IMG/VR virus record: IMGVR_UViG_3300043446_000622
Span: 1 to 22,905 of that record
Length of the DNA: 22,905 nucleotides
Source of the DNA: a virus
Direction: 5' to 3' (one strand)
Positions 204 through 7,586 of this stretch are shown piece by piece. Below the pieces are notes generated by a model. That model was not told the DNA's origin. It worked only from the letters and a program-made list of their open reading frames with translations, and did no database searches. The stretch's first letter is position 1. The number at the start of each line of letters is the position of its first letter. Made by a program: the position numbers and the translations under genes.

Positions 204-2153
204 ATGAGCACCCTGTGGGTTGACTTTGAGACTCGCAGTCGCTGTGACCTGACAACCAAAGGTGTGTACAACTACGCGCAAGACGGCAGCACTGACGTCT
301 TGTGCATGTCCTATGCGTTCGATGACGATGAGGTCGTGACGTGGACGCCCGATCAGCCGTTCCCAGAGGCCGTGCGCCAGCACAAAGGCCAGATCCGCGC
401 ACATAACGCAGCCTTTGAGCGTCTGATTTTCTGGTACGTCTTGCAAATCAACTTCGATCTTGAGCAGTTTTACTGCACTGCAACACAGGCGCGTGCTAAC
501 TGTGCGCCAGGGTCGTTGGAGGACGTGGGCAGGTTCGCCAGCGCAGACATGCGTAAGGACTACCGTGGGGCGCAACTGATCAGGCGGCTATGTTTGCCGC
601 AGGCAGACGGCAAGTTTTGCCAAGATGCGGCACTTTTTGCCGAGATGGTGGCCTATTGTGAGCAAGACGTCCGCGCCATGCGAGCCATCTCTAAGGCCAT
701 GCGCGACCTGTCAGCCGAAGAATTAGCCGACTACCATGTGAACGAGCGCATCAACGACCGTGGCGTGCTGGTGGACGTTGCGTTGTGCAAGGCCGCTATC
801 GAGTACGCGTCAGACGAACTGGTCGAGATCGAGCAACTGGTCGCTGAAGTAACGCAGGGTGAGATCATGAGCGTACGCTCGCCTAAGATGCGCCAGTGGG
901 TCATGGACCGCGTTGGCCCTGAGGCGTTGAAGCTCATGGAGTCTTATAAGGACGGTGAGAAGAAGTATTCGATTGATAAGACCGTTCGCGCTAATCTGCT
1001 TGCGATGGACGATCCTGAGCAAGTGCCATCGGACGTTGCTGACGTGATCCAGTGCGCGGATGACCTGTGGGCTAGCAGTGTGGCTAAGTTCGCTCGCTTG
1101 GCTGAGCTTGCCGACGATGAGGATCATCGCGTCAGAGGCGCGTTCGTATTCGCTGGTGGCTCGGCCACGGGCCGTGCGTCGTCCTACGGCGCTCAGGTCC
1201 ACAACTTCACGCGCAAGTGTGCGGATGATCCTGAGGCTGTGCGTCACGCGATGGTGCGCGGCCACAAGATCGTGCCGACCTATGGGCGACGCGTCACTGA
1301 CGTGCTGAAAGGGATGCTACGGCCTGCGCTGATGCCTGCGCCTGAGCATGTGCTTATCGTAGCAGATTGGGCGGCTATTGAAGCGCGGATGAACCCGTGG
1401 CTGTCCGCGCATGTGACGTCTGAGGCTAAGTTAGATTTGTTTCGCACAGGCGCAGACATCTACAAATATAACGCAAGCCGTACGTTTAACGTGCCCATCG
1501 AGCAGATCGACAAGGAACAGCGTCAGATCGGCAAGGTCCAAGAACTCGCCTGCGGCTACGGTGGCGGTGTGGGTGCGTTCGCCTCGATGGGGCGCATCTA
1601 TGGCGTTAACTTACCTGAGGCTGACAGCAGGCGCATGGTCGACGCGTGGCGTCGCGCTAACCCGTGGGCGGTGCATTACTGGCAGGCGCTTGAGTCGGCC
1701 TACTTGCGTGCGATGAAGCATCCAAAGTCTGAGTTCAAGGCTGGCCGTGTAACGTACTATTTTGATGGTCAGCATCTCTGGTACGCGCTGCCGTCAGGGC
1801 GCATCCTATGCTATCCCTACGCGCGGCTAGAGGAGGATGGCGTGTCCTATGCCAAGGCGTCATGGAAGCCTGCTGCTGACGCTAAGGAGTGGCCTAGAAC
1901 GCGGTTGTGGAAGGGTCTAGCTGCTGAGAATATCTGCCAAGCCGCAGCGGCTGACATCTTGCGCTCGTCGCTGCGCCAGCTTGATAGCGTCGTGTTGCAT
2001 GTGCATGATGAGATTGTGTTAGAGGTTCCAGCGTCTGACGCTGACGCTGCGGTGGCGATGCTGCATAGCGTCATGTGTACGTCGCCCACATGGGCAAGCG
2101 GTCTGCCCTTAGAGGCCGAGATTAACGTTATGGATAGATATGGAAAGGGTTGA
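204..2153 (+). CDS. Family A DNA polymerase with 3'-5' exonuclease domain (Leu762 type)
   Basis: Replicative phage DNA polymerase of the Pol I family, 649 aa, without a 5'-3' exonuclease domain. The N-terminal proofreading domain shows ExoI D7-x-E9 in WVDFETRS, ExoII HNAAFE at 67-72, and ExoIII Y151-x3-D155. The polymerase domain shows motif A (D388WAAIEAR395), motif B (R440-x3-K444-x3-L448-x3-Y452G453) and motif C (H601-D602-E603), so the catalytic carboxylates D388 and D602 are present. The motif B residue equivalent to Klenow Phe762 is Leu448. The ATG directly follows the stop of the upstream 55-aa ORF and has no clear ribosome-binding site, consistent with coupling. The next gene starts at the polymerase stop. 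Acts with the downstream primase/helicase in phage DNA replication. Confidence 0.95.
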   Translation: MSTLWVDFETRSRCDLTTKGVYNYAQDGSTDVLCMSYAFDDDEVVTWTPDQPFPEAVRQHKGQIRAHNAAFERLIFWYVLQINFDLEQFYCTATQARANCAPGSLEDVGRFASADMRKDYRGAQLIRRLCLPQADGKFCQDAALFAEMVAYCEQDVRAMRAISKAMRDLSAEELADYHVNERINDRGVLVDVALCKAAIEYASDELVEIEQLVAEVTQGEIMSVRSPKMRQWVMDRVGPEALKLMESYKDGEKKYSIDKTVRANLLAMDDPEQVPSDVADVIQCADDLWASSVAKFARLAELADDEDHRVRGAFVFAGGSATGRASSYGAQVHNFTRKCADDPEAVRHAMVRGHKIVPTYGRRVTDVLKGMLRPALMPAPEHVLIVADWAAIEARMNPWLSAHVTSEAKLDLFRTGADIYKYNASRTFNVPIEQIDKEQRQIGKVQELACGYGGGVGAFASMGRIYGVNLPEADSRRMVDAWRRANPWAVHYWQALESAYLRAMKHPKSEFKAGRVTYYFDGQHLWYALPSGRILCYPYARLEEDGVSYAKASWKPAADAKEWPRTRLWKGLAAENICQAAAADILRSSLRQLDSVVLHVHDEIVLEVPASDADAAVAMLHSVMCTSPTWASGLPLEAEINVMDRYGKG

Positions 2154-2154
2154 C

Positions 2155-4467
2155 ATGACAAAAAATTTTTTAGATTTCTTAATTTCTCTTGCGCCTGAGG
2201 GCGAGACGCCGCTTATCGTGCGGCAAAAGCCTATGATGAAGGATGGTCAGCTACAGTTCCATGCAGACGGCGCGATCAAGTGTACGTGGCCTGCCCACCT
2301 GCCCGACATTAAGAAGATCAAGCCCGATCAGGCATGGTACGGCAACACGGCGAGTTTTATTGTTGATCGCTTTGGTGATCATGTGTCGGCATCGGCGGCT
2401 AACTGCGAGTATTGTCTGGTGCTCGTGCTTGATGACGTGGGCACTAAGTCGAAGGCGCCATCGCTTGCGCCGACGTGGGTGATGGAGACCTCGCCAGGGT
2501 CGTATCAGTATGGTTACGCCTTTAGTGATGACCAACCCACCAAGGGTGAGTTCAGTGCGGCCATTAAAGCGATTGCCAACGCAGGCTACACCGACCCAGG
2601 CGCAACCAACGCCGTGCGTAACTTTCGCCTGCCTGGCTCGATCAACCTTAAGCCAGGTCGCAATAACTTTGCCGCGCAGCTTATCGAGTTCCACCCTGAT
2701 CGACTGTTCACGCTGCCTCAGATCTGCGAGGCGCTAGGCGTTACGCCTGCTGAGGCTGATAGCGCAGGCCCAAGCCCGATTAAGATCGTTGACACGGGCG
2801 ATGATGACGTCTTTGCGTGGCTGGCCGAGCAGGGTCTTGTCTTGTCGCGCCCGAACCAAGAAGGCTGGGCTGGCGTGATCTGCCCGAACCATGCCGCGCA
2901 CACCGACGGCAACCCCGAGGGGCGATATAAGCCTGCCTTGCGCGCGTACTGCTGCCTGCACTCGCACTGCGTTGACTTCGACACCAAGACGTTCTTATCG
3001 TGGGTCACCGAGCAGGGCGGGCCTTCGCACGCGCTTGGCTTGCGCGATGATCTGCTTGCGGCCACCATGCAATCGACCCTTACCAAGATCGAGCCTTCGA
3101 CGTTTTTTAGTGACGACGCTAAAAAAGTGATTGAAGAAGTCGAGCGCAAAGAGCTTGGTCGCGTGGAGATGAAGGGTTGGTTTGAGCGCTTTGCATACAT
3201 TCAGTCCGATGACTCGTTTTTTGATATGCAAGATCGGCGCGAGGTGCCGCGCTACGTATTCAACGCGCTCTATCGCCATGTTAATTGCATCTCCATCAAT
3301 AGCAAGCGCAAGGTCGAGGCAGCGACCGCATACGATGAGCAACGCCAGGCGATGGGCGCTCGCACCTTGGTGGGTGTGACCTACGCTGCGGGCGAAAGTC
3401 TGCTCGTTGCGCGTGATGGGGATGTGTATGGCAACCGTTGGCGCGACGCGCGGCCTGTGGTCGATAAAGCGTTTGTTGGGGATATTAGCCCTTGGCTTGA
3501 GCACTGCGAGCGGCTTGTGCCTGAGCCTAGCGAGCGCGAGCACCTATTTAACGTGATGGCGTATAAGTTGCAGCACCCCGAGGTCAAGATCAATCACGCC
3601 GTGTTGCATGGCGGCGATCAAGGCTGCGGTAAAGACACCATGTGGGCGCCTTTTCTATGGGCCGTGTGCGGGCCAGGATTGAAGAATCGCGGTCTGCTTG
3701 ATAACGACTCGCTGTCGAGTCAGTGGGGTTATCAACTTGAGTCGGAGGTGTTGATCATCAACGAACTGAAAGAGCCTGAGGCCGCTGCGCGTCGTGCGCT
3801 GGCGAATAAACTTAAGCCCATCATCGCTGCGCCTCCAGAGATGCTCCCAATCAATCGCAAGGGATTGCACCCCTATGACATGCTCAACCGATTGTTTGTG
3901 CTGTCGTTTACCAATGATCCGTTGCCCATATCGCTTGATTCACAGGACAGGCGTTGGTTTTGCATCTGGTCGCGTGCGCCTCGTATGCGCGATGATGATG
4001 CGAGGCGGCTTTGGGATTGGTACAAGTCGCATGGATTTGTTGCCATAACGGCATGGCTCTATCAACGTGACGTATCGTCGTTTAACCCTGCCGCTACGCC
4101 TGCCTGGACTGAGTTTAAGTCGAACCTTGTTGAGCACTCGATGTCGACGGCTGAAAGTTGGCTTGTGGACATGATGCGCCGCCGCCAGGGCGAGTTTAGT
4201 AAAGGCGCAGTCGGGTCGCCCTTCCATGCGCTTATCGACCGATTGCTTGGCAGTATGCCCGCAGGCGTGAAGGTTCCCCAGGCTGCGCTGTTACATGCGC
4301 TCAAGGAAGCTGGTTGGATTGACGTGGGCCGGTTAGCCAGTGCGGAATATACAACTAAAAAGCATGTCTTCGCTGCGCCTGAGCTTGCCAATAGACTGAG
4401 CAAGTCTGAGCTTAGGCGCTTAGTCGAGGATACTGCACCTGCATCGAAAATGGCGCTTGTGAAATAA
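2155..4467 (+). CDS. RepB-like primase / P-loop (SF3/D5-like) helicase
   Basis: Large replication protein (770 aa) that should prime and unwind DNA for the polymerase. The N-terminal part resembles RepB-like/PrimPol phage primases: an acidic LVLDDVGTK strand, WVMETSPGSYQ, and FRLPGSINLK. A His/Cys zinc-binding-like patch follows (C243-x2-H246 and C266-C267-x-H269-x-H271-C272). The C-terminal ATPase has Walker A GGDQGCGKDT (486-495, Lys493), a Walker B-like strand VLIINE ending at E537, a sensor Asn in SFTND (N587), and a candidate arginine finger at R599/R600, as in D5/virulence-associated-E-type SF3 helicases. The start at 2155 is preferred because GGAAAGGG lies five bases upstream. An in-frame ATG at 2140 lacks a ribosome-binding site. 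The gene begins one base after the polymerase stop. Confidence 0.88.
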   Translation: MTKNFLDFLISLAPEGETPLIVRQKPMMKDGQLQFHADGAIKCTWPAHLPDIKKIKPDQAWYGNTASFIVDRFGDHVSASAANCEYCLVLVLDDVGTKSKAPSLAPTWVMETSPGSYQYGYAFSDDQPTKGEFSAAIKAIANAGYTDPGATNAVRNFRLPGSINLKPGRNNFAAQLIEFHPDRLFTLPQICEALGVTPAEADSAGPSPIKIVDTGDDDVFAWLAEQGLVLSRPNQEGWAGVICPNHAAHTDGNPEGRYKPALRAYCCLHSHCVDFDTKTFLSWVTEQGGPSHALGLRDDLLAATMQSTLTKIEPSTFFSDDAKKVIEEVERKELGRVEMKGWFERFAYIQSDDSFFDMQDRREVPRYVFNALYRHVNCISINSKRKVEAATAYDEQRQAMGARTLVGVTYAAGESLLVARDGDVYGNRWRDARPVVDKAFVGDISPWLEHCERLVPEPSEREHLFNVMAYKLQHPEVKINHAVLHGGDQGCGKDTMWAPFLWAVCGPGLKNRGLLDNDSLSSQWGYQLESEVLIINELKEPEAAARRALANKLKPIIAAPPEMLPINRKGLHPYDMLNRLFVLSFTNDPLPISLDSQDRRWFCIWSRAPRMRDDDARRLWDWYKSHGFVAITAWLYQRDVSSFNPAATPAWTEFKSNLVEHSMSTAESWLVDMMRRRQGEFSKGAVGSPFHALIDRLLGSMPAGVKVPQAALLHALKEAGWIDVGRLASAEYTTKKHVFAAPELANRLSKSELRRLVEDTAPASKMALVK

Positions 4468-4525: not shown

Positions 4526-4603
4526 TTATAAGTCTAACAGTTCGCTGATGCACCATGCAAGCACTATTGCGATTAGCGCAGTCAGCATGGTGGTAGCGTC
4601 CAT
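4526..4603 (-). CDS. Tiny membrane peptide (25 aa), candidate
   Basis: A 25-residue ORF beginning MDATTMLTALIAIVL and ending SELLDL. Residues 6-18 form one uninterrupted hydrophobic segment long enough to insert in or span a membrane. The start overlaps the end of the 61-aa gene by 22 bases, so translation could be coupled. The only ribosome-binding-like sequence (AGGAC) is too close to the ATG, which lowers confidence. It is the last gene before the terminator. Its size and MD start parallel the other 25-aa peptide in the operon (4777-4854). Function unknown. Confidence 0.4.
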   Translation of the reverse strand: MDATTMLTALIAIVLAWCISELLDL

Positions 4604-4767
4604 GTCCTAAAGGCTTTGTGTTTTGCCATGGTTTCGGCGCACTCCGTTGAGGGTGGGCGCCAACCATAGCGTCGCCAGACAGTCTCCACTGGCACGCACC
4701 ATTTATCAGGCGTGATTTGATGCGCGAGTAGCGCGAGCCACTCGGGCGGTTTATTGTCGTCGGTCAT
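4582..4767 (-). CDS. Hypothetical protein (61 aa)
   Basis: Unrecognised small protein beginning MTDDNKPPEWLALLAHQ, rich in Trp and Pro, with three cysteines. AGGGGA on the minus strand lies about six bases before the ATG at 4767 and overlaps the stop of the upstream 25-aa peptide gene, which supports this start. No transmembrane segment or known motif is seen. It sits in the middle of the leftward operon between two tiny membrane peptides. Function unknown. Confidence 0.65.
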   Translation of the reverse strand: MTDDNKPPEWLALLAHQITPDKWCVPVETVWRRYGWRPPSTECAETMAKHKAFRTWTLPPC

Positions 4768-4776
4768 ATGCGTCCC

Positions 4777-4854
4777 CTATAGGTTGAAGAAAATAGCGCA
4801 AGCAAACGCAACGCCGAACACAAGCGCAACGATCCAATCAAGTATTAAGTCCAT
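4777..4854 (-). CDS. Tiny membrane peptide (25 aa)
   Basis: A 25-residue ORF beginning MDLILDWIVALVF and ending FFNL, almost entirely hydrophobic after residue 7: a single predicted membrane-spanning helix. On the minus strand GAAGGG lies seven bases before the ATG, a good ribosome-binding site. The gene starts inside the end of the upstream 55-aa gene (17-base overlap) and its stop is fused to the ribosome-binding site of the 61-aa gene, so the order and spacing look selected. It could be a small membrane-active early protein. No family is recognised. Confidence 0.6.
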   Translation of the reverse strand: MDLILDWIVALVFGVAFACAIFFNL

Positions 4855-5005
4855 CTTTCATCCCTTCAATAATATGAGCCACTGCTAGCCAGTAGCGGTA
4901 ACCAAGCCCATCATGGGCAAACTTATCGGCCATGTAAGAGCAAAACACAAGCGCATGTTCGCCATACATGTCCAAGACCTTATGCGCGGTTCTGGTGGGG
5001 TTCAA
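4838..5005 (-). CDS. Hypothetical protein (55 aa) with a TTG start
   Basis: Unrecognised protein beginning (M)NPTRTAHKVLDMYGEHALV. The start is inferred as TTG at 5005: GGAGGG lies six bases upstream and the TTG overlaps the TGA of the preceding 91-aa gene (TTGA), the classic coupled arrangement. An internal ATG (residue 13) is possible but has no ribosome-binding site. The protein is probably helical, with aromatic-rich GLGYRYWLAVAHIIEGM near the C-terminus. No function can be assigned. Confidence 0.6.
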   Translation of the reverse strand: MNPTRTAHKVLDMYGEHALVFCSYMADKFAHDGLGYRYWLAVAHIIEGMKDGLNT

Positions 5006-5277
5006 ACGTTACCCTCCACAATATCGCCGCAAGCGATCCACAATAAACGGTCCAAATTGGCGTCATGGTCCGACAAATCGTCGTCATCCCACGCGCCATA
5101 ATCGCGCAACACTTCGCGGACCTTTATAGGGTCTAAGCGATTAAGTTGCTTTTTAATCGTTGGGACTTCCCTAAGCACTTGAATGTCACTATCGCATTGG
5201 CCTTGATGATGGCCCGTATGCGCTTGCGCTTTGGTGATATTTAGTTCAATGAAGCCGTAAGAGTCAGTCCAATACAT
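5002..5277 (-). CDS. Hypothetical acidic protein (91 aa)
   Basis: Unrecognised cytosolic-looking protein beginning MYWTDSYGFIELNITKA. AAGGAC lies five bases before the ATG at 5277. The middle is basic and helical (IKKQLNRLDPIKVREVL) and is followed by an acidic stretch WDDDDLSDHD. No membrane segment or known motif is seen. The TGA stop overlaps the TTG start of the next gene. Member of the leftward early-type operon. Confidence 0.72.
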   Translation of the reverse strand: MYWTDSYGFIELNITKAQAHTGHHQGQCDSDIQVLREVPTIKKQLNRLDPIKVREVLRDYGAWDDDDLSDHDANLDRLLWIACGDIVEGNV

Positions 5278-5288
5278 GGTTAGTCCTT

Positions 5289-5486
5289 TTAATAAAGTGC
5301 TTCGCCGTAGTTTTCGATAGTTTTCTTATCGCGCGCTAGGCGCAATTGCTTGCGCGGGAACACGAGCCACTCGGGTAGCGGAAACCGTGAGTCGATCAGG
5401 CGCACCGTGATGCTATCGCCGTGCACGCCTTCGACCACGCCTAGGCCTTTGGGCGTTGTGACGCGATCATGCTTCCGCATTTTCAT
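5289..5486 (-). CDS. Small KOW/SH3-like beta-barrel protein (65 aa)
   Basis: The segment HDRVTTPKGLGVVEGV followed by GDSITVRL has the alternating beta-strand/glycine pattern of small KOW/SH3-like barrel domains, where a short protein binds nucleic acid or a protein partner. This is a pattern-based inference. Two in-frame ATGs (5486 and 5480) lie within the end of the upstream gene. Neither has a strong ribosome-binding site, so coupling is likely and the exact start is uncertain. A longer in-frame extension upstream encodes an unrelated hydrophobic stretch inside the neighbouring gene and was discarded. Confidence 0.65.
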   Translation of the reverse strand: MKMRKHDRVTTPKGLGVVEGVHGDSITVRLIDSRFPLPEWLVFPRKQLRLARDKKTIENYGEALY

Positions 5487-5676
5487 CGCCAAATAGGTTA
5501 GGCAAGCATTCGCGCACGAAAGCATGAGCATGCTTTGCATCAATAAAACGGCGAATAGTGACCGTGTTATCGCTATCAGTATCAATCAAGCGTACAGCGT
5601 AGGGTAGACGGCCAGAGGCATAGTAAACATGGCACGCCATGCCGTCAGTAGAATCGACAAATAATTGATCATCCAT
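5467..5676 (-). CDS. Hypothetical protein (69 aa)
   Basis: Unrecognised small protein beginning MDDQLFVDSTDGMACHVYY. The ATG at 5676 has AAGGAT five bases upstream. An ATG further up (5712) has no ribosome-binding site and lies in the end of the preceding gene. The N-terminal half looks beta-rich (ACHVYY, YAVRLI, TVTIRRF) and the end is an alpha helix (DAKHAHAFVREC) with an acidic tail. It overlaps the next gene by about 20 bases. Function unknown. Confidence 0.7.
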   Translation of the reverse strand: MDDQLFVDSTDGMACHVYYASGRLPYAVRLIDTDSDNTVTIRRFIDAKHAHAFVRECLPNLFGDENAEA

Positions 5677-5686
5677 GATTATCCTT

Positions 5687-6400
5687 TCATACGTATGCTG
5701 CAGCCTTGCCATGCGCGACTATGGCAATGGATACACTCAAAGGCTTAAGCGCGCCGTCACAAGCGCCACAATCGATGCATTGTTTACGATTGCCACCTTC
5801 CGGGCTTGCTGGGCAGGCTATCTCATGATTAAGCGCTGGCGCTTGCATCAATGGGATAACCCTAAATGTGCGCCAGCCCATGCTGCGCGCCAGATCGCGC
5901 TCCGACGCATTGTCTGCGCTTGCCATGCATAATTCCCGATGCGCTTGCGCCCAAGCTTGGCGCCATTGATGAGAGTAACCCGTCCAACCCTTGGCGAATT
6001 GAAGGATCGCTAACCATGCATCAACGTCGACCATTGCCGGGTCACCGTAAGCGCCAAGTCTAACCATGCGGCCACGCAACAATTCAGCACCTAAGCTTGG
6101 ATCGTGAGAATAGTCCGCATATGATCCACGCGTGAAAGCTTTATAAACTGCGCTGACCGATTTTGAAACATCAACGTAGCAAGTGCGCTTGCGCGACGCA
6201 TCGCCGCGATGCACGCAATCGCCGCATATGCTTGCGTCGTCGGCGCTTTTGATTGCATCCATTGGATGCACATCGGCGCGCAATATGAAAGTTTGAACCA
6301 TGTTACCGGTTTTCTCATTTTTGGATTTGAGAATAGCGATACCGACAATGGGCGCGCCGTCGATCGGTGATGCGCCGCGATAGAAGATGAATCCATTCAT
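5687..6400 (-). CDS. Double cysteine-cluster phage protein of unknown function (237 aa)
   Basis: First and largest gene of the leftward operon. It resembles a family recurrent in phage genomes, with an N-terminal cluster ICGDC...CYV (C59-x2-C62-x11-C74) and a C-terminal cluster CPAS...CIDCGAC (C196, C208-x2-C211-x2-C214) followed by SIAIVAHG (H230). Both clusters look like metal sites (zinc or Fe-S). The CxxCxxC...H arrangement is loosely reminiscent of the zinc site of TGT/DpdA-type enzymes, but no catalytic residue of those enzymes can be identified here, so this is only a hypothesis. Start 6400 is chosen because AGGAC lies seven bases upstream. The in-frame ATG at 6445 lies upstream of the predicted -10 box and would not be transcribed. 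Confidence 0.8.
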   Translation of the reverse strand: MNGFIFYRGASPIDGAPIVGIAILKSKNEKTGNMVQTFILRADVHPMDAIKSADDASICGDCVHRGDASRKRTCYVDVSKSVSAVYKAFTRGSYADYSHDPSLGAELLRGRMVRLGAYGDPAMVDVDAWLAILQFAKGWTGYSHQWRQAWAQAHRELCMASADNASERDLARSMGWRTFRVIPLMQAPALNHEIACPASPEGGNRKQCIDCGACDGALKPLSVSIAIVAHGKAAAYV

Positions 6401-6433
6401 TTTATTGTCCTTTACTGTAGTGGATGAGCTTTT

Positions 6434-6462
6434 ATTGTAAAGCATTGTTTTGCAGAAGTCAA
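6434..6462 (-). promoter_or_regulatory. Sigma70-type promoter of the leftward operon
   Basis: Read on the minus strand: -35 TTGACT (6462-6457), a 17-base spacer, -10 TACAAT (6439-6434), each five of six to consensus. The predicted start near 6427 gives a leader of about 27 bases to the ATG at 6400. A TTGCCAAT-related half-site (ATTGGC on the plus strand) sits immediately upstream of the -35. Confidence 0.8.
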
Positions 6463-6712
6463 AATTGGCGGTTTAAAACGCGTGAATTGCCCAGGAAATG
6501 GGGGGTAGATTGCCAATGATTGCCAATGGCAAGTGCTTCATTTACAAGGAGATTGTGGGGCTATTGGCAGTCTTGTCATTTATTCTGTATTGCAAAGAAT
6601 TATCTAAGTGGGGCTAGGCTAACTTGAGGAGCATGACAATTTTGCCAATATTGCCAATAACTAACGGCTGAGTGCCCTCCCCATCCCCGAACGCATGAAG
6701 CCAGCCGAAATC

Positions 6713-6868
6713 ATTGCCAATGTTTACAAACTTTGTAGCATTGCCTAGATTGCCAATGTTTACAAATAGTAGATCATTGCCTAGATTGCCAATTGTCCTA
6801 AAGTCTAGAGCATGACCCAACTTGCCAATCGCTACAAACTTTGGAGCATGACCCAAATTGCCAATCGG
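6713..6868 (+). repeat. Tandem 36-bp direct repeats (four units plus a partial fifth)
   Basis: Units start at 6713, 6749, 6785, 6821 and (partial) 6857, each exactly 36 bases apart. Each begins (A/C)TTGCCAAT, and units 1, 2 and 4 continue with a TACAAA element. The right end of each unit is CATTGCCTAG (units 1, 2) or CATGACCCAA (units 3, 4). A further copy at 6642 is exactly two periods to the left, with the intermediate unit degenerate. The octamer TTGCCAAT occurs nine times between 6510 and 6865, always in the same orientation. Confidence 0.9.
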
Positions 6869-6936
6869 TTTTCGGTTTTTGGTTTAAGGCCCCCCTGGTA
6901 GGGCCGACGGCCTGGCTGGTCAGGGCCGGAGGGTCT

Positions 6937-7007
6937 ACAAGAAATTTTTTTTATTTTTAAAAGTTCACTAGCACAAGAAATTTTTTTATTTTTAGTAGTC
7001 CACTAGC
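6937..7007 (+). repeat. AT-rich tandem duplication (36 + 35 bp)
   Basis: Two adjacent copies (6937-6972 and 6973-7007) share ACAAGAAATTTTTTT, ATTTTTA and a final CACTAGC, differing by one T and a few substitutions. Beside the 36-bp repeats they could form a DNA-unwinding element, although no protein or experiment supports this here. Confidence 0.85.
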
Positions 7008-7094
7008 CAAAAGTATTAGAATGTCTTACGCTTGCGTTGTAGCAACGATGGTGTTGTAACGACGCTTAGGTCATCTTGGTAAAATTGTCACGCT

Positions 7095-7586
7095 ATGTTT
7101 AAGAGCCTACCCCTCACAGTCCGTACGATTGAAGCGACAGAAGCTGTACTGGAGCGCATATACGACGCTGCGTATTTAGGATTAAAAGAAGATTCGTTGG
7201 CGTTAGCGGCAGGGTTGTTACCTGTAGAGTACCGGCTACTTAAACAGCATGACAAACTTGCCGAAATTGCCGAACTCAAGGGACGCGCAGATAGTGAGCG
7301 CGAACACAGCCAGCACATGTTGAACGCAGCGCGGCAAGGCGACGCTAAGGCGGCGTTAGAGATACTGAAACACACGCATGGTTGGGTCGCCAAGCAGGCG
7401 GTGAGTATTGAGGTGGATCAGCGCATCAGCGTGATCGACGCACTCAGAGCGGCGGAGACACGCGTTGATGAGGGTAAAGTGATCGACGTGACGCCACGAA
7501 GTGAAAAGCTAACACATGCAGAAACCAATATACAGTCCGGAAGACGAGCAACTGCTGATGACGCGGTTGTGGTCGCCCGCGATTAA
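7095..7586 (+). CDS. Probable terminase small subunit (163 aa)
   Basis: DNA-recognition subunit expected directly before TerL. The N-terminal part is helical with a helix-turn-helix-like stretch (EDSLALAAGLLPVEYRLL, about 35-52). It is followed by a charged helix and by DAKAALEILKHTHGWVAKQ (about 82-100), a pattern typical of phage small terminases, then the SIEVDQRISVIDALR strand-helix segment. Assignment rests on position, size and this pattern rather than on an enzymatic motif. There is no recognisable ribosome-binding site before ATG 7095, and no alternative start in frame upstream. The 3' end overlaps the TerL gene by 71 bases, which is long even for a phage. Confidence 0.7.
   Translation: MFKSLPLTVRTIEATEAVLERIYDAAYLGLKEDSLALAAGLLPVEYRLLKQHDKLAEIAELKGRADSEREHSQHMLNAARQGDAKAALEILKHTHGWVAKQAVSIEVDQRISVIDALRAAETRVDEGKVIDVTPRSEKLTHAETNIQSGRRATADDAVVVARD

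Follow-up and report, generated by a model that had tools for sequence, protein, structure and literature searches.

Matching between a replication initiator and its iterons is already known from SaPIs, PLEs (PMC8263062), and geminiviruses (cited in PMC12548392). In SaPI Rep and SCCmec Cch2 the iterons are bound by the C-terminal domain (PMC7581432), and PICI origins carry two iteron sets, one on either side of an AT-rich region (PMC6092414). In the PLEs, satellites of ICP1, the DNA-binding domain of RepA_N covaries with the origin, and replication requires a cognate pair (PMC8263062). For geminivirus Rep, a short variable stretch of the protein was matched to the iteron by comparison (Arguello-Astorga and Ruiz-Medrano 2001, cited in PMC12548392). 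So far, sequence recognition by NrS-1 is described in terms of primase recognition sites (TTTGGTTA, GTG; PMC8718748). Our literature search, of partial coverage, returned no report on the origin or on initiator-iteron matching of the podophage family considered here and no wing-based specificity switch for a primase-helicase; wing-based switching in this uncultured family appears to be new.

The DNA analyzed here (herein the window) is the whole 22,905-base virus record IMGVR_UViG_3300043446_000622. Megablast against phage records gave no match for it, and the sole nearer record is MW202483, at 58% identity in a tblastn search with the window polymerase as the query. The gene order is family A DNA polymerase, primase-helicase, small leftward genes, an intergenic region, a terS-like gene, terL, portal, and others:

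204 to 2153, plus strand: family A DNA polymerase, presumed replicative polymerase.
2140 to 4467, plus strand: primase-helicase gene with a RepB_primase domain, a DUF5906 SF3-like helicase, and a C-terminal winged helix; proposed initiator.
4207 to 4431, plus strand: C-terminal winged helix and following helices (residues 690 through 764), predicted with AlphaFold.
4336 to 4356, plus strand: codons of the hypervariable wing, residues 733 through 739 (ASAEYTT), which covary with the repeat word.
4582 to 6445, leftward: small leftward genes.
6446 to 7094: intergenic region holding the array.
7095 to 7586, plus strand: terS-like gene, directly 3' of the array; a profile search gave no match and the name rests on its position before terL.
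From 7516: terL.
From 9226: P22-like portal gene.

An array of repeats had been placed between the replication and packaging arms by an earlier reading of the sequence alone (herein the sequence-only reading), and this order of primase, leftward small genes, array, terS, and terL bears that out. The leftward cassette adjoining the array (5687 through 6445 and its neighbors) is variable; several close relatives have the array but no detectable phrog_2554 gene. In the structural region, two long ORFs rich in glycine and repeats (13513 through 15273 and 18675 through 19475) probably encode tail or appendage proteins.

The locus resembles the SaPIs and PICIs, including SaPI5 PriRep1, and Cch2 in combining a helicase, here the proposed initiator (theirs sometimes primase-fused), with an iteron array; the window protein also has SaPI5 PriRep1 among its fold matches. 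In those systems, however, the origin lies directly downstream of rep, whereas the array in the window lies ∼2 kb past the primase stop, beyond the leftward genes. They are satellites or cassettes; the window belongs to a podophage that encodes a family A polymerase of its own and has the array beside terS, and, unlike them, it has a RepB-type primase domain and a specificity that seems to be focused in a wing of about seven residues. Because the origin would not be directly downstream of the initiator gene, we do not class the array as a SaPI or PICI member and propose only that it works like them. PLE RepA_N is an unrelated protein that lacks a helicase fusion and has two replicon types accounted for by domain swapping, whereas the window family has many words and point-like changes in the wing. 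NrS-1 primase-polymerase likewise joins a primase domain to an SF3-like helicase region in a phage; in the text of PMC8718748 that we consulted, we found no iteron array read through a wing at the C terminus, as is proposed for the window family. The iteron-related domain of geminivirus Rep is similar in that a short variable protein stretch tracks the iteron sequence, but geminivirus Rep is a rolling-circle protein of eukaryotic single-stranded DNA viruses, with an unrelated fold and mode of replication.

All nine copies of the octamer TTGCCAAT previously listed in the intergenic region (at 6510, 6520, 6642, 6651, 6714, 6750, 6786, 6822, and 6858) are present; the window holds 12 against 1.47 expected, a count reached in none of 100 shuffles. 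The five octamers from 6714 through 6858 are spaced by exactly 36 bp and 6642 lies 72 bp (two periods) before 6714. Seven octamers had been assigned to this grid; we count six, since the supposed degenerate unit at 6678 reads TCCCCATC, matches at four of eight bases, and forms no recognizable unit. The phase of 6642 is itself incidental, because in the closest relatives (L003 and L005) the interval matching 6651 through 6714 differs in length and holds inverted copies. The octamers do share one orientation, as had been reported, but ATTG-N-CAAT is an odd palindrome, so the shared orientation is partly a choice of reading.

The true repeat unit, not recognized in the sequence-only reading, is 9 to 10 bp, TGNC followed by AAT, arranged in head-to-tail pairs and triplets. 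The 36-bp period of the window comprises two such units and an 18-bp spacer; a 26-bp period in L039 comprises two units and an 8-bp spacer. A scan with a position weight matrix (PWM) added units that the sequence-only reading lacked, namely a diverged reversed pair (6562 through 6579) and a TGAC-type unit at 6633; more TGAC-type units near 6813 and 6849 were found by eye. The resulting layout is as follows:

6508 to 6534, no strand assigned: outer left iteron units, octamers 6510 and 6520; with a near-palindromic word, equally reversed units at 6508 to 6516 and 6518 to 6526.
6562 to 6579, minus strand: core left iteron pair, diverged, ATGACAAGA CTGCCAATA on the minus strand; from the PWM scan and the layout in relatives.
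6580 to 6632, no strand: AT-richer gap of 53 bp between the inverted iteron sets; candidate melting site.
6633 to 6659, plus strand: core right iteron triplet, ATGACAATT TTGCCAATA TTGCCAATA.
6714 to 6866, plus strand: right array, five octamers at exact 36-bp spacing, two units and an 18-bp spacer each.

The window thereby has a PICI-like layout of a reversed pair, a 53-bp AT-richer gap (AT content ∼0.62 vs. 0.52 for the region), and a forward triplet. Inverted iteron sets flank a gap in 51 loci, a detection helped in the A class (A at primase residue 733; see below) by its palindromic word. Because that word is nearly palindromic, orientation and part of the layout evidence are ambiguous in the window class; L041, L341, and L342, whose words are nonpalindromic, show the same polarity of iteron sets. 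A long inverted repeat of units (ATTGGCAATcTTGGCAAT...ATTGCCAA.ATTGCCAAT) sits between the triplet and the right array in L003 (3029 through 3075), L005 (9225 through 9270), and L006 (7032 through 7080) and is missing from the window.

Searching viral contigs with TerL, phrog_2554, and the primase yielded several hundred related loci. Conservation among relatives had been named as a point on which the sequence-only reading would stand or fall, and an array does occupy this intergenic region in many relatives; wherever the octamer core is densely clustered, the cluster lies between the leftward genes and terS. The repeated word is lineage-specific: besides TGNCAAT there are others, which in more distant relatives include TGACTACA (L035), TTGCCTACA (L041), TTGTCCACA (L201), TGACACAT (L051), and TGACCGGC (L021). 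Only ∼60% of pairs with primases at 95 to 100% identity have a common word. No clear word is evident in a sizeable minority of loci, most of which are GC-rich. Short tandem repeats are expanded beside or within the array in some loci (CCGACCGC in L009, at ∼6280 through 6400; CACCCTGT in L053, upstream of terS).

Three loci with three different words (L035, L036, and L041) have TerS proteins that are 99 to 100% identical, and TerS was rejected as the reader of the word; their primases are 96 to 97% identical, with the differences concentrated toward the C terminus. The product of the phrog_2554 gene was likewise set aside, as several phages with the same word have no detectable match. We then scanned ∼2046 columns of four proteins (polymerase, primase, TerS, and TerL) in 152 nonredundant loci, comparing column identity with the similarity of over-represented 6-mers of the region while holding primase core identity constant. 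The best two columns are primase residues 733 and 738 (partial r of 0.52 and 0.47; 0.58 and 0.53 with the window clade left out). The next-best column in all four proteins, and the highest value for TerS, is r 0.26. Within primase residues 690 through 775 only 733 through 739 stand out. Neighboring variable columns do not track the word, so simple linkage is insufficient. Among pairs at 88 to 94% core identity, a word is shared by 90% of those with the same residues at 733 and 738 and by none of the 243 with different residues at 733. None of 5,000 within-cluster label permutations reaches the observed difference; phylogeny is not fully removed by this procedure because it treats one cluster of 112 sequences as exchangeable. 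The covariation supports initiator-iteron matching and suggests that the primase-helicase reads the repeats via about seven changeable residues that vary together with the word.

These relations can be stated as a provisional rule in which M at 733 corresponds to TGAC-TAC, Y to TTGC-CTACA, K to TGTC-CACA, and A, without R at 735, to TGNC-AAT. A version of the rule was fixed in writing before new loci were fetched, the regions of which share almost no 60-mers with the first set. It gave the correct word in 17 of 19 new loci (K, 15 of 15; M, two of two; A, none of two), so that the K class dominates with 15 of the 17 successes. Both class A misses carry R at 735, which is absent from the class A training loci, and the refinement "without R at 735" was made only after both had been seen. 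Most A-type loci that the written rule does not cover (ASADFKS and similar) showed the A word.

The window primase contains RepB_primase and DUF5906 domains (PF16793 and PF19263, both above their cut-offs), that is, an AEP-type primase domain followed by an SF3-like helicase. An AlphaFold model built with 70 relatives (mean pLDDT 84.7, pTM 0.51) has a C-terminal winged helix with helices at 695 through 703 and 714 through 723 and strands at 727 through 732 and 741 through 745; a separate model of the C-terminal part agrees. The predicted arrangement is a helix-turn-helix followed by a two-stranded wing, and residues 733 through 739 are assigned to the wing because they sit between the two predicted strands. 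The nearest solved fold to the full model is the C-terminal region of NrS-1 primase-polymerase (6k9c, E 3.8e-17; Foldseek), followed by other replicative primase-helicases, those of ASFV and poxviruses and SaPI5 PriRep1. The C-terminal domain alone returns generic winged-helix matches, none with E < 0.001 (Foldseek; VIA Z at most 6.5); as these are weak and generic, they support the winged-helix class and name no specific relative. As modeled, the protein has the makeup of an SF3-type helicase initiator with a predicted DNA-binding domain at its C terminus.

The repeats had been proposed to bind a replication initiator or a large regulator. That proposal gains support. The covariation points to the winged helix at the C terminus of the primase-helicase as the reader, and a replication origin is on that account the best reading; we consider it likely, judging from sequence comparison, that the array is the phage replication origin and the phage's own primase-helicase its initiator. 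A regulatory role may exist alongside. Two opposed iteron sets would flank the AT-richer gap, with more iterons to the right, and the C-terminal winged helix would bind the 9- to 10-bp units as head-to-tail pairs and triplets. The conserved TGNC half would be read by the conserved part of the winged-helix domain, and wing residues 733 through 739 would select the variable half. By analogy with SaPIs and PICIs, helicase rings would assemble on both iteron sets to melt the gap and load, after which the fused primase domain would prime synthesis for the family A polymerase. The comparison itself shows the array, its shared position in relatives, and the specific covariation of its word with the wing; direct binding, melting, loading, and origin activity are inferred. 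GC skew, suggested in the sequence-only reading as a means of placing the origin, gives no consistent position and decides nothing either way: the cumulative minimum lies away from the array and varies among seven near-complete relatives (6 to 10 kb upstream of the array in five, elsewhere in two).

That GC skew marks no origin at the array would suit an alternative in which the primase-helicase, or its C-terminal domain, mainly controls the flanking divergent genes and replication starts elsewhere. The region does lie between leftward small genes and rightward late genes, and it contains eight sigma-70-like matches against 1.6 expected in shuffles; several of these matches, however, consist of the repeat itself. 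Moreover, the strongest candidate for the reader, the fused primase-helicase, is a protein of replication, the inverted iteron sets flanking an AT-richer gap resemble PICI origins (PMC6092414), and regulation is compatible with origin function; we regard control of transcription as the main role as unlikely. Far less probable is that the 36-bp period reflects a 12-residue protein repeat in the minus-strand ORF at 6614 through 6856, even though 36 is divisible by three and this 80-residue frame is open in the window. Several relatives lack the frame (in L003, L004, L083, and L251 no open stretch across the array is longer than ∼44 to 60 residues), the spacing depends on lineage (26 bp in L039), and the word tracks a residue of another protein; a coding repeat was rejected.

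The array also sits just upstream of terS, where pac or cosB packaging sites recognized by TerS are found, and the 69- to 127-bp end overlaps of near-complete relatives fit circular assemblies of cos or headful genomes. Such a site would be expected to follow TerS, yet three words accompany near-identical TerS proteins and no TerS column exceeds the r given above; with a better packaging candidate in the conserved GC-rich/AAATTTTT element at 6886 through 7007, we think a packaging role for the array highly improbable. We give equally little credence to binding by a small phage protein outside the four-protein scan, or by a host regulator, with primase residues 733 and 738 covarying through linkage. 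The small leftward genes vary among relatives and lay outside that scan, and the end of the primase gene is only ∼2 kb from the array, but the variable columns directly beside 733 through 739 do not track the word, several phages with an identical word have no detectable phrog_2554 gene, and a host regulator would not switch its site between near-identical phages.

Returning to the array as an origin read by the primase-helicase, we suggest tentatively, and with more doubt than confidence, that the wing of about seven residues is a readily rewritten recognition code, in which A, M, Y, or K at 733, R or not at 735, and residue 738 set the variable half of the 9- to 10-bp word. Near-identical genomes of this abundant family would then often switch words, perhaps as an escape from satellites, competitors, or defenses that exploit the origin or initiator. 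If the matching holds, the origins of a widespread uncultured podophage family could be located, and the repeat word predicted in several lineages, from a few primase residues. It would also mean many natural initiator-origin switches between phages with primases at least 95% identical, and the evolution of DNA recognition by the wing could be tested with small proteins and short DNA.

The element at 6886 through 7007 consists of a GC-rich stretch followed by AAGAAATTTTTTTATTTTT; the window carries it as two direct repeats of 35 bp. At least 81 of 152 relatives have a similar element before terS. It is a candidate packaging site or second AT-rich element. The contig ends of five 37- to 39-kb relatives (G001 through G004 and G007) overlap by 69 to 127 bp, in agreement with circular assembly. 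Metagenome bins labeled Rhodoferax, betaproteobacteria, and others contain related primases, a weak pointer to the host. A PqqA-like peptide of 23 residues (MWTTPAATEMRFGFEVTMYVMNK; Pfam PqqA, E 3e-10) is encoded between the array and terS, 144 to 289 bp before the terS match, in L028, L029, L036, L039, L041, L046, L169, L171, L175, L181, and L185. It hints at methylotroph hosts; there is an earlier report of phage PqqA, from Lake Baikal (PMC7678222).
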